A stretch of 64,000 bases of DNA, taken from Bradyrhizobium sp. ORS 278. GTDB taxonomy: Bacteria > Pseudomonadota > Alphaproteobacteria > Rhizobiales > Xanthobacteraceae. A program made the position numbers and the translations under genes. Positions 3,994 through 38,857 of this stretch are shown here, piece by piece. The stretch spans positions 6,168,501-6,232,500 of the forward strand of contig NC_009445.1 of the NCBI RefSeq assembly GCF_000026145.1, in the 5' to 3' direction. The notes beneath the pieces were generated by a model. The model did not search any database. It had not been told where the DNA came from and saw nothing but the letters and a program-made list of their open reading frames with translations. Every line of letters starts with the position of its first letter. The first letter of the stretch is position 1.

Positions 3994-5166
3994 TCAGGCC
4001 GCCTTCGGCAGCGCGGCCTTGGCTTCCGCGAACGCCCAGTCGATCCACTGCGTCAGCAGCGCGACGTCGCTCGCTTCCACCGTGGCGCCGCACCAGATGC
4101 GCAGGCCGGCCGGCGCGTCGCGGTAATGCGCGAAGTCGAAGCCGGCGTTCTCCTTCTCGACCAGCGCCACCAGCTTCTTGGCGAATTCGGCCTGGGCATC
4201 GGCCGTCAGCGATGTGATCGCGGGATCGACGACCTTCAGGCACACCGAGGTGTTGGAGCGGATCGCCGGATCCTTGGCGAGGAAATCGATCCACGGCGTG
4301 CGCGCCTTCCAGTCGGCTAGCACCTTGGTGTTGGCGTCGGCGCGCGCGATCAGCGCCTTGAGGCCGCCGATCGACTTGCCCCAGTTCAGCGCATCCAGAT
4401 AGTCCTCGACGCACAGCATCGACGGCGTGTTGATGGTCTCGCCCTCGAAGATGCCGGCATTGAGCTTGCCGCCCTTGGTAAGGCGGAAGATCTTCGGCAG
4501 CGGCCAGGCCGGCTTGTAGGTCTCGAGACGCTCCACCGCGCGCGGCGACAGAATGAGCATGCCATGCGCGGCCTCGCCGCCGAGCGCCTTCTGCCAGGAG
4601 AAGGTGACGACATCGAGCTTCGGCCAGTCCAACGGCTGCGCGAATGCGGCCGACGTTGCGTCGCAGATCGTCAGGCCTTCGCGTCTCGCGCTGATCCAGT
4701 CGGCATTCGGAACGCGCACGCCCGAGGTGGTGCCGTTCCAGGTGAAGACGACGTCGCTCGCCTGATCGACCTTTGACAGGTCCGGGATCTCGCCATAGCC
4801 GGCGTGCAGCTTGGTGACGTCCTTGAGCTTGAGCTCCTTGACGATGTCGCTCACCCAGCCTTCGCCGAAGGATTCCCAGGCGATGGTCGTGACGGGCCGC
4901 GCGCCGAGCAGCGACCACAACGCCATCTCGACGGCGCCGGTGTCGGACGCCGGCACGATGCCGATCTTGTAGTCGGCCGGCACTTCGAGCACGTCGCGCG
5001 TCAGCTCGATGGCCTGCTTCAGCTTGGCTTTGCCGACCTTCGCGCGATGCGAGCGGCCGAGGGGAGCGTCCTTGAGATTTTCGGCGGTCCATCCGGGGCG
5101 CTTGGCGCAGGGGCCGGAGGAGAAATGCGGCACGGCGGGCCGCTGCGAGGGCTTCGCTGCAGTCAT
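3994..5166 (-). CDS. serC: phosphoserine aminotransferase
   Basis: This PLP enzyme converts 3-phosphohydroxypyruvate and glutamate to phosphoserine, the second step of serine synthesis. In some bacteria it also serves pyridoxal phosphate synthesis. The 390-residue length and the opening [14 protein letters not shown] fit the alphaproteobacterial subfamily of class V aminotransferases. The PLP lysine is expected at Lys193 in [10 protein letters not shown]. It lies immediately upstream of serA on the same strand, so the two pathway steps are probably co-expressed unless the intervening palindrome interferes. A parallel 372-residue frame over the same bases is not coding. Confidence 0.96.
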
Positions 5167-5309
5167 CGTCTATCCTTCCAGATAGTAAGCCTCCCGTTGG
5201 GGGGAGGTGTCCCGCCGGCGTGATTAGGCGAACGCCCGTTCCGCGTCAAGGAACTTCGCGCGATGGCACCGAGCGGATCACGCAGACGTGGCTGGCATGC
5301 AAGCCACAC

Positions 5310-9898: not shown

Positions 9899-10367
9899 TG
9901 GCTTCGTCCCTTTGGCCGGTGAGGCGTTCGGAACCCGGCCCCACATCACAACTGACGGCTGTACAATGGCACCAAATACTTAAGCAGCGCTTAACCCTAA
10001 TAATTAGGGTTGATATTTCGTGTGCGCGTGGCAGCCGTTAATCTCCGTGCAACGTGTCCTAACGATTGGTTAGCGAACAGAAGATTACGAACTCATTAGT
10101 TGATCTCGACTGCCTCACGCAGCTCGCCGACTTCCTGGACGACTGACAACGTGACATGCGCCATCGTCGTAACAGACGACGGACTGCCTCGCCGTTCCTT
10201 ACGGGAATGGGACAAGAGTGCGGAAGCAGCCGCACGGCCGATGCAAACCGCTTGCACGAAATCATCAGCTGCCTGAGCCAACAATAAAGCGCGGACTCGT
10301 TCGTTGTCCGATCGACACGACCGTCTACGCAGACCCGATCGACCTTGGCCCGGGCACCATGCAAGAA
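9899..10367. other. 469-base stretch with no firm gene
   Basis: This stretch lies between the glmM terminator and the outer-membrane protein gene, and the part near 9950-10070 is AT-richer. It should contain the promoter of the barrel gene. The only coding candidate is the weak small frame listed separately. Confidence 0.5.
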
Positions 10368-19371: not shown

Positions 19372-19480
19372 TTGGAACCCGAATGGTGCACAAGTGAACA
19401 TTGTCCCCCGAACGGTCGTTCGTGCACGACGGTGCGGCCGACAGCATCGGTCAGACGCCGGACGGACAGTGCCGGCCTCA

Positions 19481-22400
19481 TCATCGATCGGACACGCGGC
19501 TTCCGCAGATCGACCGCGTGGATCCCGATCCCAGGCTTGCGGCCGTGCAAACCCATTCGGCTGCGCCGGCGTGAAGGCCCGGCGTCGTGCTCGGCTTGTC
19601 CTGCGAGATGACGTACCAGGTCGCAGGCGAGATTCCGGCCACGACATAGTTCGGATTGGTCAGCGTCCCCGCGACGGACAGCGTGTAGCTGCCGACCGGC
19701 GTCTGAGACGTGATGCCGAAGCTGTTCGACAGGCCTGTCAGCGCGCTCACGGTGTCGCCGTTCTGAAGACCCGTGGCGGCGATCCCGGGATTGAACGATG
19801 TCTCGCCATAGAGGGAGGCTCCGCCGAGCGCCCGGACCATGACGGGCGCGGGAGCGACCGTCAGTGTCGCAGGACCGCCAAAGCCGAACGCGTAGCCGGC
19901 CGCTGAGACGAGCGAGCCCTGAGCGATGTTGACGGCGTAGGGCCCGCCGGCGACGCTGGCCGTCGCGGCCGCTCCGCTGGAGGTCAGCAAGGGGCTGCCG
20001 CCGAACACCGTTGCGGCGGTGTCTGCGAGGAACGCATGGGCGACGCCGGGCTGATATCCGGACACGGCATAGCTCGTCGCAAGCGTCGACGTCGCATCGG
20101 TGCCGTATGTCTTGGCGAGGCTGGTTGGCGTGAATGTCAGCGCCGGCTGCGTCGCGAACAGATAGCGGTTGCCGGCGGCGGCGATGCTGCCCGGCGGGCG
20201 GCTGGCATAGGTCGCGTTCCAAAGCGCGGTATTGCCGCTGTCGAGACCGCCGAAACTGTCGGAGCCCGGCGCACTGGAATAGATCAGCCATCGGCCCGAG
20301 GTCGCGGCAACGGCGCCCGCGCCAGCGTTGTTGATGAACGCATTGGCCGCCGCCAGCACCGGGCTGGCGCCACTCAGCGAGGCTCCGCTGGCCAGGGTGA
20401 GATCGTGGCCGCTGATCAGCAGCATTGCATTGCCCGAGGGATGAGAGCTGGAGACGGCTGCGCTGCCGACATTGAGATCGAACCCGCTTGCTGTCGTCAC
20501 CACGACCGGACCGGAGGAGGACAACGGACCGAGCGACAACGCATGCGCATCGTTGAACGTCAACGCGCCGATTGTGCCCGACGCGGTCAGCGTGCCCACG
20601 GCATTGTTGCCGGAGAGATTGACGGTGCCGGCGCCGCTGTCCGACAGCGTCGCGGCGGTCACGACGCCGGCGCCGGAGAGCGTCGCGCCGGAGGCCACGC
20701 TGGTCGTCGCAATTCCCGCGCCCACGTTCCAGGAGCCTGACAGGTCGAGGGTGCCGCCGTTCACCGTGGTCGGACCCGTATAGGTGTTGGCACCAGATAG
20801 GGTCAACGTGCCCGAGCCAGACTTGGCCAGCGCGCCGCTGCCGCCAAGACTGGAGCCGATCGTGATCGCATAGCCGCCATCGTTGATGAATGCACCGCCG
20901 GCCTGCACCACGGTCGACGTCAATCCCGTCATGAACGATGGGCTGCTCGCCGTGGCCTGCAGCCACCCGCCATTGAAGTTGAAGGACGCGCTCGCACCCG
21001 AGTTCTTCACGACCGACGGCGTCAGGATGGTGCCGCCATTCAGATTGACCGTGCCGATTCCTTCAGGCCCGGCGCCGCCGCTGATGCCGAGGCCGCCCGC
21101 CAGACTGGCGATGCCGCTGCCGGAGACATTGAGCGTTCCGGTCCCCTGCTCACCGACGATCAGTTGAGAGCCCGTGCCCGTTTGATTGAACTGGCCGCCG
21201 CTGAGATTGTAGACGCCGCTGCTGCCGACGCGACGGCCGACGATGGCCCACCACCCGGCATTGATCGTGCCGCCGCTCTGGTTGAGCGTTCCCGCGCCAT
21301 AGCCACCGACGTTGAAAATGCCGTTTGTCACCACAGCCGTCCCGCCGGACAGGTTGTAGGTGCCCATGCCGCCAACGGCCGAGCCGATGCCGAAGTTGGG
21401 GTCGTTGAGGGCCGTTGTGGTGAGCGTCCCGGCCGACTGGTTGACCGTGCCGATCGCACCATTGGCATTGCCGATGTAGACGTTGTTGGCAGTCAGGTTG
21501 GCACTGATCTGGGCCAGGCTTGCCTTGTCCGCCGACGCGGCGCCGACCACGAGATCGCCTGTGAGCGCGGTCGATCCGGAATTCACCACCAGCGTCGCGC
21601 CCGAAGCACCGCCGCCGACCAGGATGGATCCCATCGCCGAGGAGCCGGACGGGCTGAGCGCGAGCGTGCCGGCATTGACAGTGGTGGTGCCTGTCAGCGC
21701 ATTGGCACCGGAGAGCGTGATGGTGCCGGTCCCCGCTTTCGTGATGCTGGCGCTTGACCAACTGTCGGCAATGACGCCACTGAAGGTGCTGGAGCCATTC
21801 GCCGCTCCGATGGTGATCGCGTTGTAGCCGGATCCCGACCAACCGGACTTGATCGTGCCGGCCCCCGAGATCCGGTCAACGATCACGTTGGCTTCGACAC
21901 CGTCGAAGGTCGCACCCGCGGCGACGTTGAGGCTGGAAAGATTACCCGTCCACACGTCGTGTTGGTAGTGGCCCCCGACCAGCTTGCCAGCTTGAACGTC
22001 AATCAACCCGGCGCTCGACAGGCCCCAGGTGAAGGTGGCGCTCGACGAGGTGCCTGCGAACGCCACGGTGTTCGTGCCGGTCTTCTGCAGCGTTCCTGCA
22101 CCACTGATCGAGGAAGCAGCGGTGGGATTGAACGTGTAGTCGAACGACGAATTACCTACCTGAAGCGTGGCGCCGGATGCGACCGTGAATGCGGAGGACG
22201 ATGTCGTGTTACTCAGGGCAAGCGTGCCGCTGTTGACCGTCGTCGCGCCGGTGTAGGTGTTCGCGCCGGAGAGCGTGATGGTCCCGGTGCCCAGCTTGGT
22301 GATGGCGGCGTTGCCCCAACGGTTGGAAATGACGCCATTGAACGTGCTGGAGCCATTTGCTGCACCGATGGTCATCCCGCTGTAGATGGGGGCTCCCCAG

Positions 22401-25400
22401 CCGGATGTGATCGAACCAGAGCCAGTAATCCGGTCGAGGACCAGGTTTGCCTCGACGCCATCGAACACCGCGCCAGAGGCCACGTTAAGGCTGGAGAGAT
22501 TGCCAGTCCAAATGTCGTGCTGGTAGTTGCCCCCGACCAGTTTTCCGGCCTGGACGTCGATCAACCCGCCGCTCGACAGGCCCCACGTGAAGGTGGCGCT
22601 CGCCGAGGTGCCCGCAAACGTCACGATGTTCGTGCCAATCTTCTGCAGCGTTCCGGCCCCGCTGATCGCGGAAGCAGTGGTGGGATTGAAGGTATAGTCG
22701 AACGAGGAATTGCCCACCTGAAGCGTAGCGCCGGACGCGACCGTGAATGCTGAGGACGCTGTCGTGTTGCTCTGAGCGAGCGTGCCGCTATTCACCGTCG
22801 TGGTGCCCGTATAGGTATTGGCGCCCGCCAGGATGAGACTTCCCGGGCCGTCCTTTGTGAGGGAGTAGCCACCGGACACGGCACCTGAAATCGTGGCCGC
22901 ATCAGAGCCGTTGGGAGTGGATATCGTGCTGTTCCCCGTAAGTGGCAGCGGGGTGGTCAGCGTCCCCGTGCCGGAAAGTCCGAGCGTGCCGTTGAGGAGG
23001 ACGCCGGTGATGCCCACTTGCGAGCCCGCCCCCAGCGTCCACGTCCATCCCGTCATGTTCGAGTTCCAGCCATTGCCGTTGCTCGCGAGCGAAACATTGG
23101 CGTTCGCCAGCGTCGTCAGGTTGAAAGCGCCGTTGCTCGCTGACCAGGCATCGCTCCATCCGGGACTGTTGATGTTCCAGTTCTGCGTCCCTCCCAGCGT
23201 CAGCGTGTTGCCCTGTGGCGAAAAGCGTACGTCGCCGCCCGACTCCGCTATGTTGACCGTCAAGCCACCGGTCGCAGCGTTGATTGCGGCGTTGCCCGTG
23301 ACGATGAAGGCGCGGCGGTAGCCGGCCGTACCGGAGCCGCTCGCATTGAGCGTGACCGCGCCATTGGTCGTGACGTTCGCCCCCGAGGCGAGCTGGACGC
23401 CCCAGCTGTGCGTGCCGGAAGCGGAGCCATTGAGCGCGAGCGAACCTCCGGACGCGCTCAGCGTCGCATTTCCGGTCAATACGAGCCCGGCGGCGTCGCC
23501 ACCGCCGGCGTAATAGCCATAGAGCGTTCCATTGCCACCGACCGTTCCAGCCACGGTCGTCACGCCGGCGGTTGGATTGCTGACGGCTGCATTGTTCGAC
23601 AGCGACAAGGTCGCGCCGCTGGCAACGGTAACACCCGTGGTGCTGGCCTGATCGTGGGTGAAGCCGAGCGTGCCGGCATTGATCGTCGTCGCGCCCGTGT
23701 AGGAGTTCGTGCCGGACAGCGTCAGCGTGCCAGGTCCGTTGTAGACGAGGCTGCCGGAGCCGGAGATGGCGCCCGAATAGGTGCTTGAGCTGCCGGCGGC
23801 GGTGTTGAGGGTGAGCATGCCCGAATTGGCGAGAGATGCCGCGCCGGAGATGCCGGCGCTGCCGTTCGCTGTCAGCGTCAATCCGCTGGACGCGCCGGAG
23901 TTGGTAACGCCGGCATTAAGGATGATCCCACCAGCCGCATTCAAGGTCAGCAGCGTATTGGCAACCCACGACAACGAGCTGTTGAGCGTGATGTCGCCAG
24001 CCTCGGCGCCGGACGATCCCGTCGACACCGTCACATTGGCGCTGGCGAGCGCGTTCTGCAGCGTGGTCACGTTGATGATCGAGCCGCTGCCGGTCGCGGC
24101 AAAGCTCGCGTCATGATTGGTGTCGCTGCCGCTCGAGATGGTGACGTTGTAGGGATCGAGCAGCAGCGTGCCGGTACGGTCGCTCTGTGCGGTGACGTCG
24201 GTCGTGCCCTGGTAGTTCAGCACGCCGTGACTTGAGGTCTCGACCGCGCCACCATTACCGGCGCCGCCGGCGGTCGCACTGATCGTGCCGCGGAAGTCCG
24301 TGAACTGATCGGACCACAGCACGATCTTGCCGCCCTCGCCCTTGCTGCCATTGGCGGAGATCGTCGCGCCCTGCGCGACCGTCGTGGTCCGGGCATTCTG
24401 AACGTCGCCGCCAACCAGCTTGGCTGCGGGATCACTGCCGCCGCGCTGGTCGCCGCCGATCAGGATCGTACCGCCGCTCGTGCCGTTGGCGCTGATCTTC
24501 GCCGTCTCGGTCAGCGCCACCTTGCTGCCGCTGACGACGATCGTGCCGCCGGCCTGGCGCCGGCCGCCATTGGCAGCCAGACGGCCGGACACCGTAACGG
24601 CGCCACCGCCGCCGCCGAGCACGATGTTGCCGGAACGGCCCGATACCGAGCGCGCGGAGATCGCGCCGGAGACGTTGACGACGTCGCGTGCCGCCTGCTG
24701 CGCCGCCGCGGCGCGAATCTCGACCCGGCCACCGGCCGCCCTGATCTTGCCGGAGACGTCGAGCAGCGCCTTGCCGTCCGCCGCCTTGGCGCCGGTCGGC
24801 AACGCGACCTGCAGGAAGCCGTCGCCGCTCGGATCGAGCGTGACCTGCTCGCCGGCGCCGAGCCCGACCTTGCCGAGCGGCACATTGATAGTGCCGCTGT
24901 TGGACACCGAGCCGCCGATCAGGCCGACATAGGATCCCGGAGCGCCGCTGATCGTGCCGGCGTTGCTGACAGCGGCCGAGGCGCCCTTGCCGGTGAAGTT
25001 GAGACGGCCGGCATTGAAATCCGCATCGCTGATGTCGAGTGTCGAGGCGACGAAGCCGCCGCCGACCTGCACCGATCCGCTCGGCGTGATCGCGATGCCG
25101 TTCGGGTTGACCAGATACACCTGGCCGTTGCCGGTGATCTTGCCGGCGATGGTCGAGGACGTGTTGCCGGTGACGCGGTTCAGGATCGCTGCATTGGCAT
25201 TCGGCTGCGCGAAGTTTACGCTGGCATTGCTGCCGACCGAGAAGCTGTTCCAGTTGACGATGGCCTTCGCCGAGGTCTGGGTCACCGTCAGCGCATTGCT
25301 ACTCGGGTTGGCAAAGCTCACCTGGCCGGAGGCGACCGATGCACCTTGCGGCAGCACGCTCTGCGCGCCTGCACGGGACGCCAGCACCAGGATCGACGCG

Positions 25401-25483
25401 GTCCCCAGCAGCATCGTCAGGACGACGCGCCGGCTCCCGTATCGTTTACCGATATTCGGCTCTCGCTCAGACACTATCATCAT
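19481..25483 (-). CDS. two-partner secretion exoprotein (TpsA2), filamentous haemagglutinin-like
   Basis: A secreted beta-helical protein of about 2000 residues. After an extended signal peptide (cleavage near RAGAQ) comes the TPS/haemagglutination domain (QSVLPQGASVASGQVSF, with NPNGIAI), used for recognition by a TpsB pore. The middle holds passenger-type repeats (GTGTITLSGANTYTGATTVN), including a 186-residue tandem duplication. The C-terminal 250 residues carry MBG-like Ig repeats (LAKTYGTDATS). The start at 25483 was chosen because its ATG overlaps the TGA of tpsA1 (ATGA, 25480-25483). Likely roles are adhesion, biofilm or surface competition. No toxin domain or VENN motif is seen at the C-terminus. 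Confidence 0.92.
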   Translation of the reverse strand: MMIVSEREPNIGKRYGSRRVVLTMLLGTASILVLASRAGAQSVLPQGASVASGQVSFANPSSNALTVTQTSAKAIVNWNSFSVGSNASVNFAQPNANAAILNRVTGNTSSTIAGKITGNGQVYLVNPNGIAITPSGSVQVGGGFVASTLDISDADFNAGRLNFTGKGASAAVSNAGTISGAPGSYVGLIGGSVSNSGTINVPLGKVGLGAGEQVTLDPSGDGFLQVALPTGAKAADGKALLDVSGKIRAAGGRVEIRAAAAQQAARDVVNVSGAISARSVSGRSGNIVLGGGGGAVTVSGRLAANGGRRQAGGTIVVSGSKVALTETAKISANGTSGGTILIGGDQRGGSDPAAKLVGGDVQNARTTTVAQGATISANGSKGEGGKIVLWSDQFTDFRGTISATAGGAGNGGAVETSSHGVLNYQGTTDVTAQSDRTGTLLLDPYNVTISSGSDTNHDASFAATGSGSIINVTTLQNALASANVTVSTGSSGAEAGDITLNSSLSWVANTLLTLNAAGGIILNAGVTNSGASSGLTLTANGSAGISGAASLANSGMLTLNTAAGSSSTYSGAISGSGSLVYNGPGTLTLSGTNSYTGATTINAGTLGFTHDQASTTGVTVASGATLSLSNNAAVSNPTAGVTTVAGTVGGNGTLYGYYAGGGDAAGLVLTGNATLSASGGSLALNGSASGTHSWGVQLASGANVTTNGAVTLNASGSGTAGYRRAFIVTGNAAINAATGGLTVNIAESGGDVRFSPQGNTLTLGGTQNWNINSPGWSDAWSASNGAFNLTTLANANVSLASNGNGWNSNMTGWTWTLGAGSQVGITGVLLNGTLGLSGTGTLTTPLPLTGNSTISTPNGSDAATISGAVSGGYSLTKDGPGSLILAGANTYTGTTTVNSGTLAQSNTTASSAFTVASGATLQVGNSSFDYTFNPTTASAISGAGTLQKIGTNIVTFAGTSASATFTWGLSSGGLIDVQAGKLVGGNYQHDIWTGNLSSLNVASGAVFDGVEANLVLDRITGSGSITSGWGAPIYSGMTIGAANGSSTFNGVISNRWGNAAITKLGTGTITLSGANTYTGATTVNSGTLALSNTTSSSAFTVASGATLQVGNSSFDYTFNPTAASSISGAGTLQKTGTNTVAFAGTSSSATFTWGLSSAGLIDVQAGKLVGGHYQHDVWTGNLSSLNVAAGATFDGVEANVIVDRISGAGTIKSGWSGSGYNAITIGAANGSSTFSGVIADSWSSASITKAGTGTITLSGANALTGTTTVNAGTLALSPSGSSAMGSILVGGGASGATLVVNSGSTALTGDLVVGAASADKASLAQISANLTANNVYIGNANGAIGTVNQSAGTLTTTALNDPNFGIGSAVGGMGTYNLSGGTAVVTNGIFNVGGYGAGTLNQSGGTINAGWWAIVGRRVGSSGVYNLSGGQFNQTGTGSQLIVGEQGTGTLNVSGSGIASLAGGLGISGGAGPEGIGTVNLNGGTILTPSVVKNSGASASFNFNGGWLQATASSPSFMTGLTSTVVQAGGAFINDGGYAITIGSSLGGSGALAKSGSGTLTLSGANTYTGPTTVNGGTLDLSGSWNVGAGIATTSVASGATLSGAGVVTAATLSDSGAGTVNLSGNNAVGTLTASGTIGALTFNDAHALSLGPLSSSGPVVVTTASGFDLNVGSAAVSSSHPSGNAMLLISGHDLTLASGASLSGASPVLAAANAFINNAGAGAVAATSGRWLIYSSAPGSDSFGGLDSGNTALWNATYASRPPGSIAAAGNRYLFATQPALTFTPTSLAKTYGTDATSTLATSYAVSGYQPGVAHAFLADTAATVFGGSPLLTSSGAAATASVAGGPYAVNIAQGSLVSAAGYAFGFGGPATLTVAPAPVMVRALGGASLYGETSFNPGIAATGLQNGDTVSALTGLSNSFGITSQTPVGSYTLSVAGTLTNPNYVVAGISPATWYVISQDKPSTTPGLHAGAAEWVCTAASLGSGSTRSICGSRVSDR
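21713..22828. repeat. tandem duplication of 558 bases inside tpsA2
   Basis: Two direct copies, 21713-22270 and 22271-22828, are offset by 558 bases, exactly 186 codons. Matching landmarks are GAGCGTGATGGT at the start of each copy and the translated DVQAGKLVGG and YTFNPT segments. The copies differ at scattered positions, so the duplication is not brand new. Confidence 0.8.
24119..25372. repeat. shared 5-prime module, copy in tpsA2
   Basis: This stretch is nearly identical to 29044-30294 in tpsA1. It encodes the TPS domain and the following linker up to LLLDPYNVTISSGSDT. By eye only about a dozen residues differ over some 415, plus one extra glycine codon here (VGGG against VGG). Confidence 0.88.
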
Positions 25484-28400
25484 TGACGTGACACCCGCCA
25501 GCCGCAAAGAGGATGGTGTGCCACACTGCCCAGGTCAGCGGTCGCGCAGACCCATTTGCCTGCAGATCCGCCGCGAAGACTAGGCATCAAGTTCGGCGGC
25601 TCCGGTGGAGTGACGCGCCATGAGGCCGTAGATGTGCCGACCACGACATAGTTCGAATTCGTCAGCGTTCCCGCCACCGACAGCGTGTAGCTGCCAAGCG
25701 GCGTCCGTGGCGTGATGCCGAAGCTGTTCGACAGGCCCGTGAGCACACTCGCGCTCTCGCTGTTCTGCAGACCGGTCGCCGCAAGGCCGGGGTCGGAGGA
25801 GGGCACGCCGAACACCGACGTGCCGCCGAGCGCCCACACGATCACCGGCGCGGGGGTGACCGTCAGAGTACCGCTGCCGAAGCCAAACGCATAACCTGCG
25901 GCCGAGGCCAGCGAACCTGGGATAATGGCGATGGCATAGGGACCGCCGGCTACGCTTGCGGTCGCAGCAGCTCCGCCAGACGTCAGAGAGGGAGCTCCGC
26001 TGAACGCGATTGCAGCCGTATCACCGAGGAAGGAATTGGCGACGCCGGACTGATAGCCCGATACGCTGTAGCCGGCCGCGAGCGTTGCCGTCGCGTCGGT
26101 GCCATAGGTCTTGCTGAAGCTGTTCGGCGTGAACGTCAGCGTCGGCTGCATCGCGAACAGATAGCGGTTGCCGGAGGCCGTGACGCTGCCGGGCGGCCGG
26201 CTGGCATAGGTCGCATTCCAGATCGCGGTGTTGCCGCTGTCGAGGCCGCCGAAGCTGTCGGAGCTCGGCGTATTCGAATAGATCAGCCAGCGTCCCGATG
26301 TCGCCGCGACCGCATTCGCCCCGGCAGCGTTGATGAAAGCCATCGCGGTGGACAGAACAGGACTGACGGCGGAGACGGTCGCCCCGCTGGCCAAGGTCAG
26401 ATTCCCTGAGGTCACAACAGTGGCGCTGCCGCTCGCACTGATACCACTTGTTCCCTGCACGGAGCCGATCGTCAGAGCCCGCGCGTTGAAGAAGCTCAGC
26501 GAGCCTATTGCGCCGGCGGCGAGCGTGCCCACCAGATTGTTCGCGTTCAGCGCATAGCTCGCGGTCCCCACCAGCTTCAACGCTGTCGCCGTGATTGATC
26601 CGCCGCTCTGGGTCACTGTTCCGGTTCCACTGAGCACGACAGGTGCCGTATTCGATGCGATGCTAGCTGCAAGCTTACCGCCGCCGTTGCCCGTCAACGT
26701 GAGCACGCCCGCGCCGTTGTTGGCGATCGTCGTTCCGCTGGCGGACATGTCGTAGCCAAATGCGCCACCCGAGGACGTCGCTCCCGACAACGTCAACGCG
26801 CCTGACGTCGTCACGATTGCGTTGCCGCCACCGGTCGAGAAACCGGTCCCGTTGCTGCTGGAGCCCGACACCTGGACGCCGCCGCCGGTGGTGGTCAGCG
26901 AGGCCCCGTTTCCAACCACCAGCCCGGAGCCGCTGGCGCTGTTGCCAGCGAGCGTCACGAAGCTGCCGGTCTGATTGTCGACCGTCGTGCTCGCAAGATA
27001 GACCCCCGTGCCCGTCGTCGAGGATCCCACGAGGGTCGGCGCGCCGCTGGCGATGGTGAGCGTATTGTTGCCGAGCCAATACAGGCCGGCGCCGCTTGCG
27101 GATGTGCCGGACATGTTGACGCCGCCGGACAGCGACAAGCTGGTACTGCCGTTGAACGCGATCCCGCTAAGGCTGCTGCTCGAACCGCTGAGACCGAGCG
27201 TCCCGGCACCGGAATTGACCAGGCTCGAACTGCCGCTATTGAACCAGACACCCTGATTGGTCTGCGAGGTGCCGGACCACGTGGCGTTGCCAGAGCTGCT
27301 GGAAACGGTATTCATGCCGAGGAAATAAAGTCCGACGGCGCTGTTGGAGCTGCCAGCGATGCTGATATTGCCTGAAGTGGCGACAGTTGCGTTGAGGTAG
27401 TCGAAGATCCCCTGGCCGCTGGTGCTGCTGCCGCTCAGCGAAAACGTGCCCGTGCCGTCATTGGTGAGAGACGTTGTTCCGTAGAGAAAGGCACCAGACC
27501 CCGAACTCGACGATCCCGCCAGCGTCAGGTTGCCGGCATTGTTGGTGATGGTGTTCACCCCATTCAGCACCAGCCCCGTGCCGCTGGTCGACGTGCCGGA
27601 CATCGCCACGGCGCCGGAGGTGCCGATCGATCCACCCGACGTTAGATTGATGCCATCGGTCGAACTGCTCGTCCCCGACAGGGTCAGCGATCCCGAAGAC
27701 GCCGTGATGGTGTCGCCGCCGACGACGACCAGTCCTAGCCCGCTGGTGCTGGTTCCGGAGAGCTGCACGGCGCCACGGCTGGTAAGGTTCGCGCCGTTCT
27801 CGACCTTCAATCCATAGCCGCTGGAGCTCGTGCCTGAGACGGCGAACCCGATCCCGGACTGATTGTCGATCGTCGCGGCGCCCTGGAAGTAGACGCCATT
27901 TCCGGAGGTCGAGGTCCCTGTGAAGGTCGGCGTGCCACTCGCGACGGTGATGGTGTTGCTGCCTTTGAACGACAGGCCATCGCCGCTGCTGGACGTGCCG
28001 ATCAGCACGACCCTGCCCGCAGTTGTCAGGTCGGCGCCGGTGTTGAAACGAATGCCGCGGTTTGAGCTCGTGGTGTTGCCATTGATCTGGAGCGTGCCGG
28101 CACCGTTGTTGACCAGATTCAGGACGCCGTTGCCTTGGTCCCAGACCGCGTTGTTTCCTGTCGAACTGCCGCTGAGGGTCAGATTACCGGCATTGTCGGT
28201 GATGGTCGTGCCGTTGAGAAAAAGGCCATAGGCCGCATTCGTATTGTTGCCGGAGATCGTGACATTGCCCGAGCTGATCAGGTTGGAATTGATGGCGACG
28301 CCGTAATTCGTGGCAGCCGCGGAATTTCCGGTGATGGCGAACGAGCCTGCGCCGGAATTCGTCAGGGTGTTGGTGCCGGCAAAGAAGTAGAAGCCGATCC

Positions 28401-30399
28401 CCGACGTGCTGCCGCCGGTCACGGCGAGATTGCCCGTGACGTTGATGATGCTCGAGGACGTATCGGCATAGAGTCCGGTATTGGAGCCGGATGTACCGGA
28501 GAGCGAGACGGTCCCGGTGGTGGACAGTGACGCGGACGAGCCGAGATACACGCCATAGCCGGTCGTCGAGGTGCCGGACACCGAGAACGATCCCGCGCTC
28601 GACAGGCTCGTGACTCCCGCAAAGCTGAGACCGGACCCGCTCGACGATGTGCCGCCGATCGTGCTGGCGCCCGCGCCCGTCGTGACGCTGGCGCCAGTGA
28701 AGCTGACCCCGCTGCTGCTCCCGCCTGCGGTCGCCGTTGCGGTCAGCGTGCCGCCGAGATTGATCGAGCTGTTGAAGGATATCTGCGATCCCGTCAGCTG
28801 CAGGCTGCCATTGCTCGCCGTGACGCCAGCATTGAGCAGGATCGCACCGGCTGCGCTGAGCGACAGCGCGTTGCCGCTGGTCCAAGTCAGCGCATTGGCA
28901 AGCGTGATGTTGCCGCTCTGCGCACCCGAGCTGCCGGTATTGACCGTCACGTTGGCGCTCGCCAGTGCGGTCTGAAGCGTCGCGATCGAGAGGATGGAGG
29001 AGTTGCCGGTCGGCGAATAGGTGCCGCCGGAATTCGACATTGCGGTGTCGCTGCCGCTCGAGATGGTGACGTTGTAGGGATCGAGCAGCAGCGTGCCGGT
29101 AAGGCCGTTCTGCGCGGTGACGTCGGTCGTGCCCTGGTAGTTCAGCACGCCGTGACTTGAGGTCTCGACCGCGCCGCCATTACCGGCGCCGCCGGCGGTC
29201 GCACTGATCGTGCCGCGGAAGTCCGTGAACTGATCGGACCACAGCACGATCTTGCCGCCCTCGCCCTGGCTGCCATTGGCGGAGATCGTCGCGCCCTGCG
29301 CGACCGTCGTGGTCTGGGCGTTTTGGACATTGCCGCCAACAAGCTTGGCCGCGGGATCACTGCCGCCGCGCTGGTCGCCGCCGATCAGGATCGTGCCGCC
29401 GCTCGTGCCGTTGGCGCTGATCTTCGCCGTCTCGGTCAGCGCCACCTTGCTGCCGCTGACGACGATCGTGCCGCCGGCCTGGCGCCGGCCGCCATTGGCA
29501 GCCAGACGGCCGGACACCGTGACGGCACCACCGCCGCCGCCGAGCAGGATCGAGCCGGGGCGGCCGGATACCGAGCGCGCGGAGATCGCGCCGGAGACGT
29601 TGACGACGTCGCGTGCCGCCTGCTGCGCCGCCGCGGCGCGAATCTCGACCCGGCCACCGGCCGCCCTGATCTTGCCGGAGACGTCGAGCAGCGCCTTGCC
29701 GTCCGCCGCCTTGGCGCCGGTCGGGAGCGCGACCTGCAGGAAGCCGTCGCCGCTCGGATCGAGCGTGACCTGCTCGCCGGCTCCGAGCCCGACCTTGCCG
29801 AGCGGCACATTGATAGTGCCGCTGTTGGACACCGAGCCGCCGATCAGGCCGACATACGATCCCGGAGCGCCGCTGATCGTGCCGGCGTTGCTGACAGCGG
29901 CCGAGGCGCCCTTGCCGGTGAAGTTGAGATGGCCGGCATTGAAATCCGCATCGCTGATGTCGAGCGTCGAGGCGACGAAGCCGCCGACCTGCACCGATCC
30001 GCTCGGCGTGATCGCGATGCCGTTCGGGTTGACCAGATACACCTGGCCGTTGCCGGTGATCTTGCCGGCGATGGTCGAGGACGTGTTGCCGGTGACGCGG
30101 TTCAGGATCGCTGCATCGGCATTCGGCTGCGCGAAGTTCACGCTGGCATTGCTGCCGACCGAGAAGCTGTTCCAGTTGACGATGGCCTTCGCCGAGGTCT
30201 GGTTTACCGTCAGCGCATTGCTACTCGGGTTGGCAAAGCTCACCTGACCGGAGGCGACCGACGCACCTTGCGGCAGCACGCTCTGCGCGCCTGCCCGCGA
30301 TGCCAGCACCAGCAGGGAGGTCGTGCCCCACAACAGGGCCAGGCTGACATGACGCCTGATCCCGGCTTGCGATACCAGTGTCCTACACGCGCTCGTCAT
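25480..30399 (-). CDS. two-partner secretion exoprotein (TpsA1), filamentous haemagglutinin-like
   Basis: A 1639-residue secreted protein. A signal peptide ends near RAGAQ, followed by the TPS domain (NPNGIAI) almost identical to that of TpsA2. About 24 Ser/Thr/Gly-rich repeats of roughly 27 residues follow (pattern GxLTLSGTSSSGxGL, then a xxTIT turn), which should form a long beta-helix. The end carries the same MBG-like region (FSKTYGTDATA) as TpsA2. It lies 180 bases downstream of the transporter gene and its stop overlaps the tpsA2 start. It differs from TpsA2 mainly in the central repeats, which suggests the same export route but a different surface. Confidence 0.92.
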   Translation of the reverse strand: MTSACRTLVSQAGIRRHVSLALLWGTTSLLVLASRAGAQSVLPQGASVASGQVSFANPSSNALTVNQTSAKAIVNWNSFSVGSNASVNFAQPNADAAILNRVTGNTSSTIAGKITGNGQVYLVNPNGIAITPSGSVQVGGFVASTLDISDADFNAGHLNFTGKGASAAVSNAGTISGAPGSYVGLIGGSVSNSGTINVPLGKVGLGAGEQVTLDPSGDGFLQVALPTGAKAADGKALLDVSGKIRAAGGRVEIRAAAAQQAARDVVNVSGAISARSVSGRPGSILLGGGGGAVTVSGRLAANGGRRQAGGTIVVSGSKVALTETAKISANGTSGGTILIGGDQRGGSDPAAKLVGGNVQNAQTTTVAQGATISANGSQGEGGKIVLWSDQFTDFRGTISATAGGAGNGGAVETSSHGVLNYQGTTDVTAQNGLTGTLLLDPYNVTISSGSDTAMSNSGGTYSPTGNSSILSIATLQTALASANVTVNTGSSGAQSGNITLANALTWTSGNALSLSAAGAILLNAGVTASNGSLQLTGSQISFNSSINLGGTLTATATAGGSSSGVSFTGASVTTGAGASTIGGTSSSGSGLSFAGVTSLSSAGSFSVSGTSTTGYGVYLGSSASLSTTGTVSLSGTSGSNTGLYADTSSSIINVTGNLAVTGGSTSGIGFYFFAGTNTLTNSGAGSFAITGNSAAATNYGVAINSNLISSGNVTISGNNTNAAYGLFLNGTTITDNAGNLTLSGSSTGNNAVWDQGNGVLNLVNNGAGTLQINGNTTSSNRGIRFNTGADLTTAGRVVLIGTSSSGDGLSFKGSNTITVASGTPTFTGTSTSGNGVYFQGAATIDNQSGIGFAVSGTSSSGYGLKVENGANLTSRGAVQLSGTSTSGLGLVVVGGDTITASSGSLTLSGTSSSTDGINLTSGGSIGTSGAVAMSGTSTSGTGLVLNGVNTITNNAGNLTLAGSSSSGSGAFLYGTTSLTNDGTGTFSLSGSSTSGQGIFDYLNATVATSGNISIAGSSNSAVGLYFLGMNTVSSSSGNATWSGTSQTNQGVWFNSGSSSLVNSGAGTLGLSGSSSSLSGIAFNGSTSLSLSGGVNMSGTSASGAGLYWLGNNTLTIASGAPTLVGSSTTGTGVYLASTTVDNQTGSFVTLAGNSASGSGLVVGNGASLTTTGGGVQVSGSSSNGTGFSTGGGNAIVTTSGALTLSGATSSGGAFGYDMSASGTTIANNGAGVLTLTGNGGGKLAASIASNTAPVVLSGTGTVTQSGGSITATALKLVGTASYALNANNLVGTLAAGAIGSLSFFNARALTIGSVQGTSGISASGSATVVTSGNLTLASGATVSAVSPVLSTAMAFINAAGANAVAATSGRWLIYSNTPSSDSFGGLDSGNTAIWNATYASRPPGSVTASGNRYLFAMQPTLTFTPNSFSKTYGTDATATLAAGYSVSGYQSGVANSFLGDTAAIAFSGAPSLTSGGAAATASVAGGPYAIAIIPGSLASAAGYAFGFGSGTLTVTPAPVIVWALGGTSVFGVPSSDPGLAATGLQNSESASVLTGLSNSFGITPRTPLGSYTLSVAGTLTNSNYVVVGTSTASWRVTPPEPPNLMPSLRGGSAGKWVCATADLGSVAHHPLCGWRVSRQ
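26665..28690. repeat. about 24-25 degenerate repeats of roughly 81 bases within tpsA1
   Basis: The encoded units of 26-31 residues each carry a strand like LTLSGTSSSG, a GL or GV step, and a TIT or LTT strand. Nucleotide identity between units is modest, so the repeat is conserved at protein level. It looks like one beta-helix coil per unit. Confidence 0.75.
29044..30294. repeat. shared 5-prime module, copy in tpsA1
   Basis: Partner of 24119-25372. Similarity ends abruptly at the signal peptide on one side and at the first central repeats on the other. Confidence 0.88.
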
Positions 30400-30579
30400 C
30401 GATACTCAACCAATCGCGCTACGATGCTCGAAGCCGCGCTTCTGCGTCGTCGCGCGCGCGGCCGCCCGGATTGGAACCGGTTCGAACTGACATTTGATGA
30501 AATGTTTCGCCATTTCGGCAGCCTTCGCGTTAACGAAGGGGTCACCATGTGAGAGGGGCGGGCGGGGAGCGCGCGGAAA

Positions 30580-32310
30580 TCAGAACGACACGTTCAGCAA
30601 TACCGTCCCCCGCCATCCTGCCCTGACGCCACCGAGATCGGTAAAGCCGCGGGCGACCTCCAATGAGAGGTTCGCGGCTGTCCAGCCGGTCACCGCTCCG
30701 ACACCGCTGCGAATGCCGAGGCCCACGGACTCCGCGTTGAAGACGGGTTGCTCCGCAGCGGTTGCGTTGACGATCCAGCCCCGGCCATACGCACCGAACA
30801 GATACGGAGACAGACTCATATTCATCGCGCCGGCTGGAAGCGCGAACGAGCGTGACAGCTCGCCCCGCACAGTGACGCCTTGGTCGGCCGTGAACGTTCC
30901 CGTCGAGAAGGCGGTCAACGCATCGGTGCCATCCAGAGCGATCTGCTCCGGCCGCAACAGCGGCCGGTTCTGCGAGTACTGGCCAGCCATCAGCACGTCG
31001 AGTTGCAGCCCGCCTGCCAGCGGCTGCGTCAGCCGCGCGTTGGCCGACCATTTGACGAATTGCGAGCTCGCGCCCTGTCGCGACAACGGAACGCCGGACG
31101 CGTCGACGTCGAGCGGCCCGCGGCCCGCAAGTCCGAACGAGCCTTGTGCGCCGAGTTGCAGTCCGGCGCCCCATGGCAGCGTCGTCGCGTAATCAGGACC
31201 GAGGCGCAACGCACTGTAATGATCGTGATTCAGCGTGACACCGAACTCCGGGGCGTCCGACTTTTGGTCGATCAGTTCGAGCGCAGCGTTCGCATATAGC
31301 GAGCTGCTGCGCGTGAGCTGAAGCGGATCGCGGAATCGCACTGAATAACGTTCGAACGTGCCGTATGTCGCCGGGACATTCGCCGTGGCCGCAGTTCGCG
31401 TGATCGACCTCGTATATTCCGGATTGAAGGTGAGGCCATTGTTACCGAGAGGAACCACCACGCCCGCGCCGTAGAGCAGCAGCGGAGGACGGCCCGCAAC
31501 GAAATCATTGGGGTTCGTGCCGGAGCCGACCGAGGCATAGAACTGCTCGCCCCAGCCGAGCGCGCTGTTCACCGTGACCGCGTTCCGCGCCTGCCAGAAC
31601 CCGAGCGATTTGGACAGGCGGTTGTCGCCGCCGGTGGAGATCGCCACGACATGATGCTCGCCGTCCAGGATCAGGCCGACGCCTCCCTCCGCGACGCCGC
31701 GAGCCAGCGTACTCCTCAATCGCACACCGGGCACCTCGCCCGCGATCAGCAATGCGTTCTCGATCTGCTCCTGCGTGACATGACGACGGCCGACCAGCGT
31801 GGCGGTCCGTCTGCGGACCACCTCACGCACTTGCGCCGGCAAGGCCGACACGTCGACCCGTTCGACGAAGCCGTCGATCACGACCAGTCGCAGCGGACCA
31901 TGGTCGACCAGTCGCTGCGGCGGCACCACCACGCGGACCAGCGGAAATCCCGCCCGGACATAGGCCTGTTCGAGTTCTGCGGCCGCCGCATAAATGGCCT
32001 CGACGCTGACACGCTTGCCCGCAAGCGCGGCCACGAGTGTCTCGGCGGCGCTCGCGAGCTCCGCGAATCCGTCCTCGATGCGCACCGCGCCGACCAGCAC
32101 CGTCAGCTCACGCGCGCCGGCCGGCGCGTTCGGAGCGGACGAACGCGGCGTGACGATCACGGCGCCCGCGGGAGGCTGCGGCGGACGCAGGCTGGGCGGT
32201 GTCACCTGGCTTGGGGCGACGGCCTGGGCGTGCACATCCGAGGTCGCCGCGGTCATCATGACGATCGCAGCACCAACGTAGAAGACGGCGTTGCGCCACC
32301 ACCGACACAT
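30580..32310 (-). CDS. TpsB outer-membrane transporter (ShlB/FhaC/HecB family)
   Basis: A 576-residue protein exporting TpsA partners across the outer membrane. A signal peptide ends near DVHAQ, followed by a Pro-rich linker. POTRA-like domains come next, around residues 68-145 (VEAIYAAAAELEQAYVRAGFPLVRVVVPPQ) and on to about 215. A 16-strand barrel extends to the terminal GTVLLNVSF. The conserved loop-6 motif appears as TVRGE near residue 480. It is first in a same-strand cluster with two exoprotein genes, so it presumably serves both. The gap to tpsA1 is 180 bases without a strong terminator. Confidence 0.93.
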   Translation of the reverse strand: MCRWWRNAVFYVGAAIVMMTAATSDVHAQAVAPSQVTPPSLRPPQPPAGAVIVTPRSSAPNAPAGARELTVLVGAVRIEDGFAELASAAETLVAALAGKRVSVEAIYAAAAELEQAYVRAGFPLVRVVVPPQRLVDHGPLRLVVIDGFVERVDVSALPAQVREVVRRRTATLVGRRHVTQEQIENALLIAGEVPGVRLRSTLARGVAEGGVGLILDGEHHVVAISTGGDNRLSKSLGFWQARNAVTVNSALGWGEQFYASVGSGTNPNDFVAGRPPLLLYGAGVVVPLGNNGLTFNPEYTRSITRTAATANVPATYGTFERYSVRFRDPLQLTRSSSLYANAALELIDQKSDAPEFGVTLNHDHYSALRLGPDYATTLPWGAGLQLGAQGSFGLAGRGPLDVDASGVPLSRQGASSQFVKWSANARLTQPLAGGLQLDVLMAGQYSQNRPLLRPEQIALDGTDALTAFSTGTFTADQGVTVRGELSRSFALPAGAMNMSLSPYLFGAYGRGWIVNATAAEQPVFNAESVGLGIRSGVGAVTGWTAANLSLEVARGFTDLGGVRAGWRGTVLLNVSF

Positions 32311-32638
32311 CCGTTAAGGGCCCAAGGGAAACTGGAACAGGGGCATCGCGTCGCTGCAATGCCGGCAACATCTCGGGACCTTCGAGTTCCATGGTTAATG
32401 GGTGTTTAATTCGTGCGGAGCGGCAAGCCTGCGGTAACCACATCACGGCTTCGCAGGCGACATCGACGCGGGTTCCAACTCACTCGGATTGCTGATCATT
32501 CCGAGGCAATGCGGAGTGCTGCTCAGCACGCTCCCGTACAACTACGGCACCGTATCTGACCGGAGAAGCGATCGTTCGATCAGGCCAGACGTGATGAGCA
32601 TGCGGTCCCGAACGCCATGCGCTTGCGCGCGAGACATC
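32311..32638. other. 328-base region upstream of tpsB
   Basis: It holds the presumed promoter of the two-partner secretion cluster; an AT-richer stretch lies at 32390-32420. No open frame here looks coding and I see no palindrome of note. Confidence 0.45.
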
Positions 32639-32672
32639 GGCCCGCCAGTCCTCTCGTGGAGGTGGGCGGGCC
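32639..32672 (-). terminator. hairpin after the EF-G-like gene
   Basis: GGCCCGCC (32639) and GGCGGGCC (32665) pair, with an inner CCTC/GAGG pair around TCGT. It lies 22 bases past the stop. There is no clear U-run, so it is a hairpin of terminator type rather than a certain terminator. Confidence 0.5.
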
Positions 32673-32694
32673 GGCCCTGCTGCGGCGACGCGAT

Positions 32695-37414: not shown

Positions 37415-37624
37415 CTATGCAGGCGTCTTGGATAAGGTGTCTTGGATCACGCGTCGTGGATCACCCTTTTCGGGCCACGACCAGTCATGTCAGGGAAACG
37501 TCTGCTTTTAAGGCCCGAAGGCTTGCATCGCAAGAAGCTTGGGCACATGGCTCCCAAGACTTTAGGGAACGTTAAAGCGGCCGGGCTAGCGTGCGCCAAC
37601 GATTGTCCCAATTTTCAGGCCGAA

Positions 37625-38857
37625 ATGACCACACTCGGGTGCGCGCTCCGATCCGGCGGCTGGCTGACAGCCGCGCGGATCAAGTCTTACAGCTGGATCC
37701 TGCTCGTGGTCTCGATCGCGGCCATCGCCGGCTGGATCGCGCTGTCCGACGGCCTGATCGACCGCAACGGCAAGCCAATCGGCACCGACTTCTCCAACGT
37801 CTATGCGGCAGGCGTGCTGACCCTTCAGGGCAAGGCCGCCGATGCGTATGATCCGCCGCTGCAGCACGCGATGGAGAAGGCAGTGTTCCACGGCCGCGAC
37901 GTGCCGTTCTTCGGCTGGCACTATCCACCGTTCTTCTTTGCCATCGCCGCCATCACCGCGCTCCTGCCCTATGCGGGCGGGCTGGCGCTATGGGTGGTCT
38001 CGAGCCTGCTCGCCTATCTCGCCGTGATGCGCGCGATCCTGCCACGGCCCGAGACGCTGCTGGTCGCGGCCGCCTTCCCGGCCGTGTTCGTCAACATCGG
38101 TCACGGCCAGAACGCGTTCTTCACCGCCGCGCTGCTCGGCGGCGCCTTGCTGATGATGGAGCGCGGCCGGCCGTGGATCGCCGGCGTGCTGATCGGCCTG
38201 CTGGCCTACAAGCCGCAATTCGGCGTGCTGATTCCGATCGCGCTCGTCGCAGGCGCGCGCTGGCCGACGATTGCAGCCGCGGGTGCCACGGTTGCAGCGC
38301 TGGTCGCGATCAGCTTCGTCGCGCTCGGCCACGACGTCTGGCATGCCTTCTTCCAGTCGATGACCTTCACACAGACGGTGGTGCTCGAACAAGGCGGCAC
38401 CGGCTGGGAGAAGATCCAGTCGCTGTTCTCAGCGGCGCGCCACTGGGGCGCCGATGTCAAAAGCGCCTACGCGCTGCAGACGCTGCTTGGGCTCTTGCTC
38501 GCTGCCGGCCTCGCCTGGCTGTGGCGCAGCGAGGCCGCGTTCGACCTCAAGGCATCGGCGCTGGCGAGCGCGAGCCTTCTCGCGACACCCTATGTGCTCG
38601 ACTACGACCTCGTGGTGCTCGCCGTCGCGATCATCTTCTTCGTGCGCCACGGCCTCGCCCACGGCTTCCGCGACTACGAGCTCAGCCTGCTCGCTGCCGC
38701 CTGGATCGTGCCGCTGCTGTCGCGCAGCATCGCCGGGCTGACGACGATCCCGCTCGGCCTCATCGTGCTGATCGCTCTCTTCATGCTCACCTTGAGTCGC
38801 GCGATGACGGATCGCGCCACCGCGATCCACGGCCGCGCGCGCATCGCACAAGCGTGA
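37625..38857 (+). CDS. GT87/DUF2029-family membrane protein
   Basis: About 410 residues with around ten hydrophobic segments. GTDFSNVYAAGVLTLQG after the first membrane segment is the DUF2029 (glycosyltransferase family 87) signature with its catalytic-type Asp. The loop FFGWHYPPFFF and GLLAYKPQFG are also typical. Family members transfer mannose or arabinose from polyprenyl-phosphate donors in actinobacteria; the acceptor here is unknown. The ATG at 37625 gives a plausible N-terminus but has a weak ribosome-binding site; the frame is open from 37442. Confidence 0.85.
   Translation: MTTLGCALRSGGWLTAARIKSYSWILLVVSIAAIAGWIALSDGLIDRNGKPIGTDFSNVYAAGVLTLQGKAADAYDPPLQHAMEKAVFHGRDVPFFGWHYPPFFFAIAAITALLPYAGGLALWVVSSLLAYLAVMRAILPRPETLLVAAAFPAVFVNIGHGQNAFFTAALLGGALLMMERGRPWIAGVLIGLLAYKPQFGVLIPIALVAGARWPTIAAAGATVAALVAISFVALGHDVWHAFFQSMTFTQTVVLEQGGTGWEKIQSLFSAARHWGADVKSAYALQTLLGLLLAAGLAWLWRSEAAFDLKASALASASLLATPYVLDYDLVVLAVAIIFFVRHGLAHGFRDYELSLLAAAWIVPLLSRSIAGLTTIPLGLIVLIALFMLTLSRAMTDRATAIHGRARIAQA

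Follow-up and report, generated by a model that had tools for sequence, protein, structure and literature searches.

We analysed a 64,000-nucleotide (nt) stretch of the chromosome of Bradyrhizobium sp. ORS 278 (NC_009445.1, positions 6,168,501 to 6,232,500 of the forward strand; hereafter the window, in whose positions features are given), which contains a two-partner secretion (TPS) locus with one transporter gene, tpsB, and two exoprotein genes, tpsA1 and tpsA2. The genome is a single contig of 7,456,587 bases. We consider it probable that the locus is accessory and that its single TpsB exports two adhesin-like fibres, A1 and A2, which are alternatives to each other and remain anchored at the cell surface. 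A preliminary description of this DNA, made from the letters alone, is borne out in part; what we add to it is a strongly supported gene conversion of the TPS domains, an apparently swapped gene order in strain STM 3809, a C-terminal cysteine pair and the accessory nature of the block.

Gene content of the locus

The minus strand carries all three genes. The first, tpsB (30580..32310), encodes an outer-membrane transporter of 576 amino acids (aa), in which Pfam finds POTRA_2 (1.7e-9) and the ShlB/FhaC barrel (ShlB, 1.8e-21), both past the curated cut-offs. After a gap of 180 nt it is followed by tpsA1 (slot 1, 25480..30399, 1639 aa) and, overlapping the latter, tpsA2 (slot 2, 19481..25483, 2000 aa). 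Each TpsA has a TPS domain (7.6e-33 in A1 and 2.1e-31 in A2) and an MBG-like end, MBG_2 being matched when the C-terminal pieces were searched alone (E 1.7e-7 and 2.2e-5). Judged by these domains, POTRA and ShlB/FhaC barrel in TpsB and TPS in both TpsA, the locus is of type Vb. The nearest solved TPS domains by sequence are EtpA, 2odl ('Adhesin', which we take to be the HMW1 pro-piece) and the haem/haemopexin-binding protein HxuA (4i84/4rm6).

The centres of the two proteins are unlike. The type-1 passenger of tpsA1 (26320..29049, minus strand) has short SGTSTSG-like repeats, and no Pfam family matched the 910-aa centre of A1; the type-2 passenger of tpsA2 (20321..24130, minus strand) matches PATR in 5 stretches (2e-38), a family with no match in A1. 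The type-1 passenger recurs in slot 2 of STM 3809 and in protein P0004 of Bradyrhizobium sp. HKCCYLS20291, and the 5′ part of type 2 recurs in slot 1 of STM 3809. Gene calls and Pfam therefore confirm the first account of one TpsB followed by two TpsA of 1639 and about 2000 residues with unlike centres. As for A2 being a classical autotransporter (type Va) with its own C-terminal beta-barrel domain, we rejected this possibility: no autotransporter-barrel family was among its Pfam matches, and its C-terminus consists of MBG_2 and a tail with cysteines.

Homogenised TPS domains and a probably shared TpsB

When the DNA of tpsA1 and tpsA2 was compared in blocks of 20 codons, the blocks of codons ~45-445 were 87-100% identical, after which identity dropped to 75% or less, with a minimum of 33%. 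This tract (tpsA1 codons 45-445, 29065..30267; tpsA2 about codons 47-447, 24143..25345; both on the minus strand) spans the TPS domain and is 97% identical overall, versus 71% over the last ~350 codons. The TPS and MBG-like ends that had been described as shared are indeed found by Pfam in both proteins, and the likeness over the tract exceeds what had been described.

Codons specifying the same amino acid in both genes differed in 20 of 389 cases within the tract (5%) and in 127 of the 291 compared outside it (44%), a contrast with a Fisher p of 8e-35 (codons are not fully independent, so this value is to be read with some reserve), and the lowest 300-codon window was equalled in none of 5000 permutations. 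Between strains, 21-28% of the same-amino-acid codons of the TPS tract differ, so that the tract is under no special synonymous constraint. The TPS core is 97.2% identical between A1 and A2, 86.4% in the STM 3809 pair, which is not homogenised, and 86-89% across strains. For the post-TPS and C-terminal parts, identity across strains is 84% and 78% (type 1) and 90% and 81% (type 2), versus 65% and 71% between A1 and A2; middles and tails pair by type between this genome and STM 3809. These data are best explained by, and strongly support, a gene conversion that would have homogenised the TPS domains in this genome after its split from STM 3809.

With TPS domains so nearly identical, TpsB is not expected to distinguish A1 from A2. 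A second, dedicated TpsB was rejected because the genome's remaining two ShlB-family genes, at 5.72 and 2.37 Mb, are far removed from tpsB both by sequence and on the chromosome. The proposal that one TpsB serves both adhesin-like TpsA is thus supported by these comparisons. By Pfam, the TPS domains of the genome are the two described here and one at 2351091, with no others. The latter belongs to an open reading frame (ORF) of 4410 aa, with a distant TpsB of 600 aa lying ~20 kb on (G000:C1:2351091 and 2371641; L126, L131). The third TpsB-like gene (G000:C1:5724877, L129) had no TPS partner by Pfam.

The start of tpsA2 and the junction of the two genes

By direct reading, the tpsA1 stop codon (TGA, 25482-25480) overlaps an ATG at 25483, the sequence being ATGATGA and the stop/start overlap ATGA occupying 25480..25483 on the minus strand. 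Called mechanically, the ORF of A2 begins with a TTG at 25507 and has 2008 aa; the 2000 aa are counted from ATG 25483. The database entry for A2, P0001 (1977 aa), begins at codon 24, i.e. 23 codons downstream, and with this start the overlap is abolished. We favour the upstream start, with some uncertainty, because in the short form no basic residue is read ahead of the hydrophobic stretch; the earlier claim that A2 starts on the A1 stop is right as a reading of the letters and would fall with the database start. When A1 was used in a protein search, its own entry was absent among the matches listed, whereas A2 corresponds to P0001; A1 may be absent from the public protein set.

The layout had been taken to suggest a single transcript with strict translational coupling, so that the two fibres are made in a fixed ratio. 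We regard this as unlikely. Apart from the ATGATGA overlap itself, it would agree with the lack of any site resembling a promoter or terminator around the A1-A2 junction in a consensus scan, which did no better than shuffles (1 and 4 sites vs 1.8 and 7.2 in shuffles), and with the TGATG by which tpsB is coupled to tpsA in related loci. Such a tpsB-tpsA overlap was found in 8 of the 52 rows with both genes, corresponding to 7 distinct loci (L060 and L106 are one record). Apart from those of STM 3809 and this genome, eight distinct loci have a TpsB at least 45% identical, and these 7 are all of them but L062, where 370 nt separate the two genes. In these nearest single-tpsA loci, however, the overlap joins tpsB to tpsA and not tpsA to tpsA; an overlap alone does not set a ratio; and the database start of A2 sits downstream of it. 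In STM 3809, moreover, the two tpsA genes do not overlap and are separated by 223 nt, which contain a copy of the element seen between tpsB and the first tpsA. In all four genes of both strains the tpsA stop reads TGATG, and at the A1 stop this motif may therefore be older than its role as a start. Since STM 3809 has no overlap, a fixed A1:A2 ratio by translational coupling is not supported by these sequences.

Gene order in STM 3809 and a proposed exchange of passengers

In STM 3809, contig C711 carries tpsB, 176 nt and the 5′ part of a PATR-type tpsA, and contig C318 carries the 3′ end of a PATR-type tpsA, the 223 nt and a complete type-1 tpsA. As the genome (G176) has only two TPS domains, we infer from these two contigs the order B, type 2, type 1, which would be the reverse of the order B, type 1, type 2 in this genome. 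A third contig (C712) has an EF-G-like gene and then the start of tpsB, which puts the locus at the same place on the EF-G-like side. The longest identical stretch between the copies is 44 bases in STM 3809, versus 158 between A1 and A2, and with only 44 bases an assembly chimera is unlikely.

We sorted the informative sites of the quartet (A1, A2 and both STM 3809 genes) as supporting slot, type or strain. The slot/type/strain counts were 8/0/2 for codons 1-40, 1/0/2 for 41-60, 1/2/44 for 61-440, 0/6/2 for 441-460, 2/59/1 for 461-545 and 14/80/14 for the C-terminal part. The first 40 codons thus track the slot and not the passenger type, and the gap ahead of the first tpsA is the most alike between strains (78% vs 72% and 66%). 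Passenger-plus-tail cassettes therefore seem to have changed slots, although the 5′ evidence is short. Several points weigh against this: STM 3809 is a draft, its order comes from two contigs and the break lies inside the PATR passenger; the slot signal amounts to 8 sites in 40 codons and the gap sequence (78% vs 66-72%); in the signal region the slot-1 pair alone stands out (78%), and the slot-2 pair, at 62.5%, is no nearer than the other pairs (59-63%).

We rejected a simple recent duplication because of the 127 of 291 same-amino-acid codons that differ outside the tract. On that reading, A2 would lately have been duplicated from A1 (or the reverse) and its middle replaced or expanded by repeat evolution, without exchange of cassettes. 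The 97% identical TPS domains within the genome fit this, as does one tpsA being usual among relatives (no second one in 42 loci, see below), but the codon differences outside the tract are against it, and A1 and A2 each have their own counterpart in STM 3809. These counterparts and the divergence outside the tract place the duplication before the split of the two strains; a recent duplication is largely contradicted by the pairing of types and appears very unlikely. Cassette exchange between older copies is the reading we retain.

C-terminal ends of A1 and A2

The only cysteines of A1 are at positions 5, 1618 and 1632, the first lying within the signal peptide by reading, and A2 has only 1979 and 1993. 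The tails with the two pairs (25480..25548 in A1 and 19481..19549 in A2, minus strand) would form putative disulphide anchors. P0004 and the two STM 3809 proteins share this -22/-8 spacing. Among the 120 homologues listed (A2 included), cysteines per residue number 0.00115 outside and 0.02067 within the last 50 residues, and 56 of the 120 have at least two in these 50 residues. A C-terminal cysteine pair with hardly any other cysteine, as in A1 and A2, is the pattern of HMW1 and HxuA, whose disulphide loop locks them in TpsB according to the available parts of two reviews (PMC5422565, PMC3297439). By this analogy both TpsA probably stay plugged, each in its own pore, via the putative loop. Two observations count against such anchoring. 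In the remaining 64 of the 120 homologues listed there are no two cysteines in the last 50 residues, so that such an anchor is not shared throughout the family, and many end otherwise, e.g. with a WRGFDPL-type tail; and the structure model of the C-terminal part is too poor (mean predicted local distance difference test score, pLDDT, 32.6) to show a disulphide.

Contact-dependent inhibition (CDI), in which one or both TpsA would carry a C-terminal toxin to neighbours, is extremely improbable. In its favour, the one match of TpsB among PDB sequences is to a CdiB (6wim, E 8.1e-8). Against it, we found no variable toxin with an immunity gene as in CdiA/CdiB, the MBG_2-like C-terminal parts resemble each other in A1 and A2 and are conserved in STM 3809 and HKCCYLS20291, the A1-A2 junction leaves no space for an immunity gene, and just 77 nt separate the A2 stop from DNA common with relatives lacking the block. 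The absence of a toxin-like C-terminus, noted at the outset, is thereby upheld.

Occurrence among relatives

We counted the TPS domain at E <= 1e-60 across 265 genomes of the genus. A domain of this type was present in 13 of them, with two copies only in this genome and STM 3809. We also scanned 54 loci of relatives for a second TPS-domain ORF, leaving out two STM 3809 contigs and the repeat records L032-L034, L037 and L106. Two loci had no tpsA, 10 had a tpsA that was open or followed by <1200 bases, and 42 were usable (among them L107, in which tpsB is separate from tpsA); none of these 42, which had room for a second tpsA, contained one. The loci had been collected via TpsB or TPS similarity, so the count is silent on remote TPS families. 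The order B-A-A, which it had been suggested to seek in related genomes, is accordingly represented by the two tpsA genes of STM 3809 only.

In Bradyrhizobium and Rhodopseudomonas, loci with one tpsB and one tpsA (e.g. in B. iriomotense and B. manausense) have a TpsB that is 45-56% identical, and the TPS region of the nearest Bradyrhizobium TpsA of such loci is 59-71% identical. They differ in having one tpsA, mostly begun on the tpsB stop (TGATG), and those of G167 and G017 in their chromosomal place. The third type-1 TpsA, P0004, has 1843 aa and is 74% identical over 65% of A1.

The accessory block and its surroundings

The three genes fill a 13.3-kb block (19404..32686, no strand assigned) between the EF-G-like gene and a HisKA_2 histidine kinase gene with DUF4118. 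In G065, G161 and G202 both flanks are matched, and instead of the block 109, 112 and 282 bases, respectively, separate these matches; the joins correspond to window positions ~32.69 kb to 19403 in G065 and G161 and 32681 to 19219 in G202. This empty site in three relatives indicates that the block is accessory. In a search for synteny with the histidine kinase, 4 of the 265 genomes matched at E <= 1e-110, this genome included, and the other three are those that gave the empty site. A GT87 gene lies outside the block on the opposite strand (37442-38857).

Upstream of tpsB we found a CtrA-type box, TTAA-N7-TTAAC (32394..32409, minus strand), which reads TTAA-N7-TTAACCAT, a full site running into a half-site; both forms, TTAA-N7-TTAAC and TTAACCAT, are given as CtrA sites in the available part of PMC3692519. 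The full pattern matched twice in the window, versus 0.01 expected, and both half-sites are retained in STM 3809 with a different spacer. Of 61 other TpsB stretches, counted with duplicates, 2 had a looser form of the pattern upstream, within the 3% background, so the box is not family-wide. Control of the operon by CtrA, and hence by the cell cycle, is possible on the strength of the motif. The second exact match in the window is at 9980-9995 on the plus strand.

The gap between tpsB and tpsA1 contains an element, TTTCATCAAATnTCAGTnCnAACCGGTTCCAATC (30469..30502, minus strand), which alignments place before tpsA1 and before both tpsA genes of STM 3809 (L039, L104), three out of four when the strains are taken together. 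At <=3 mismatches this genome has one copy, and a reversed-pattern control gave 0. With four short pieces of it sought in 13 other loci, no ATCAAAT or TTTCATC was found after the tpsB stop. A viral carrier was rejected, since a scan of viral contigs gave 2 pattern matches and no relative. The locus contained no known RNA element, the only Rfam match of the window being a serC leader elsewhere (5165-5217, minus strand, 68.7 bits).

Comparison with known systems

In Bordetella the extra TpsA are reportedly encoded away from fhaC. As proposed for the TpsB described here, Bordetella FhaC (three TpsA: FhaB, FhaL and FhaS) and Neisseria meningitidis TpsB2 (five) export several TpsA, and the available part of PMC10449530 does not describe a tandem overlapping pair for them. 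That most systems have one TpsA per TpsB, as the preliminary description had it, agrees with what two reviews say in their available parts, where several per TpsB are the exception (PMC5422565, PMC3297439), and needs the qualification that such cases are published (PMC10449530).

The closest parallel in the exchange of passengers is HMW1/HMW2 of Haemophilus influenzae, TpsA adhesin paralogues with a conserved C-terminal cysteine pair, whose divergent binding domains are swapped between loci, a swap ascribed to gene conversion in the available parts of PMC4849778 and PMC8262952. There, two separate loci have their own B and C gene each, whereas here the tpsA genes are in tandem behind one tpsB, their middles are unrelated repeats and the block contains no third-partner cytoplasmic glycosyltransferase gene. 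Meningococcal tpsA with its tpsC cassettes is similar in that the TpsA has a >98% conserved N-terminal region and recombination in the downstream part; it differs in that the cassettes are 5′-truncated, with variable ends and small ORFs between them (PMC3848433, available part), whereas neither tpsA of this locus is truncated and their tails are conserved. Secretion of type Vb is already known, as are several TpsA served by one TpsB and the swapping of HMW binding domains. Among the papers listed on Bradyrhizobium two-partner secretion, ORS278 adhesins and tandem or gene-converted TpsA, from which subscription journals were mostly missing, none dealt with this locus.

Proposed mechanism and its meaning

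We propose the following course of events. A tandem duplication of tpsA behind one tpsB, before the split from STM 3809, and a recent gene conversion within this genome, which would have homogenised the TPS export domains, are both strongly supported by the sequence comparisons. Passenger-plus-tail cassettes would have been exchanged between slots in one of the two lineages, via the conserved TPS domain and gene ends, as supported by two strains, one of them a draft; this may have happened reciprocally or through cassettes imported from another strain. From what is known of the family, the TPS domain of each TpsA would dock onto the POTRA domains of their common TpsB, and both proteins would be threaded through copies of the pore, where the C-terminal disulphide loop would lock each of them. 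A1 and A2 would then compete one-for-one for TpsB, and the surface mix would be set by their synthesis and not by differing affinity. The protein class suggests a role in attachment or aggregation, and CtrA may control the operon.

More tentatively, and with less than even confidence, the locus could be a 'slot and cassette' display in a plant symbiont: one pore gene and two expression slots, whose export tags gene conversion keeps alike so that a passenger in either slot reaches the pore equally well, with passengers moving between slots and between strains as the HMW binding domains do in a human commensal. If anchoring is as proposed, each TpsB would display a single fibre, either A1 or A2, with competition between them for pores. 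The locus offers a compact natural test of how a TpsB pore is shared between two TpsA with near-identical export domains and unlike passengers, and of whether homogenisation of the TPS domains keeps both exportable. There may also be a link between the cell cycle, through CtrA, and surface attachment. If our interpretation is true, the passenger swapping known from the Haemophilus HMW adhesins would extend to a tandem pair in Bradyrhizobium.

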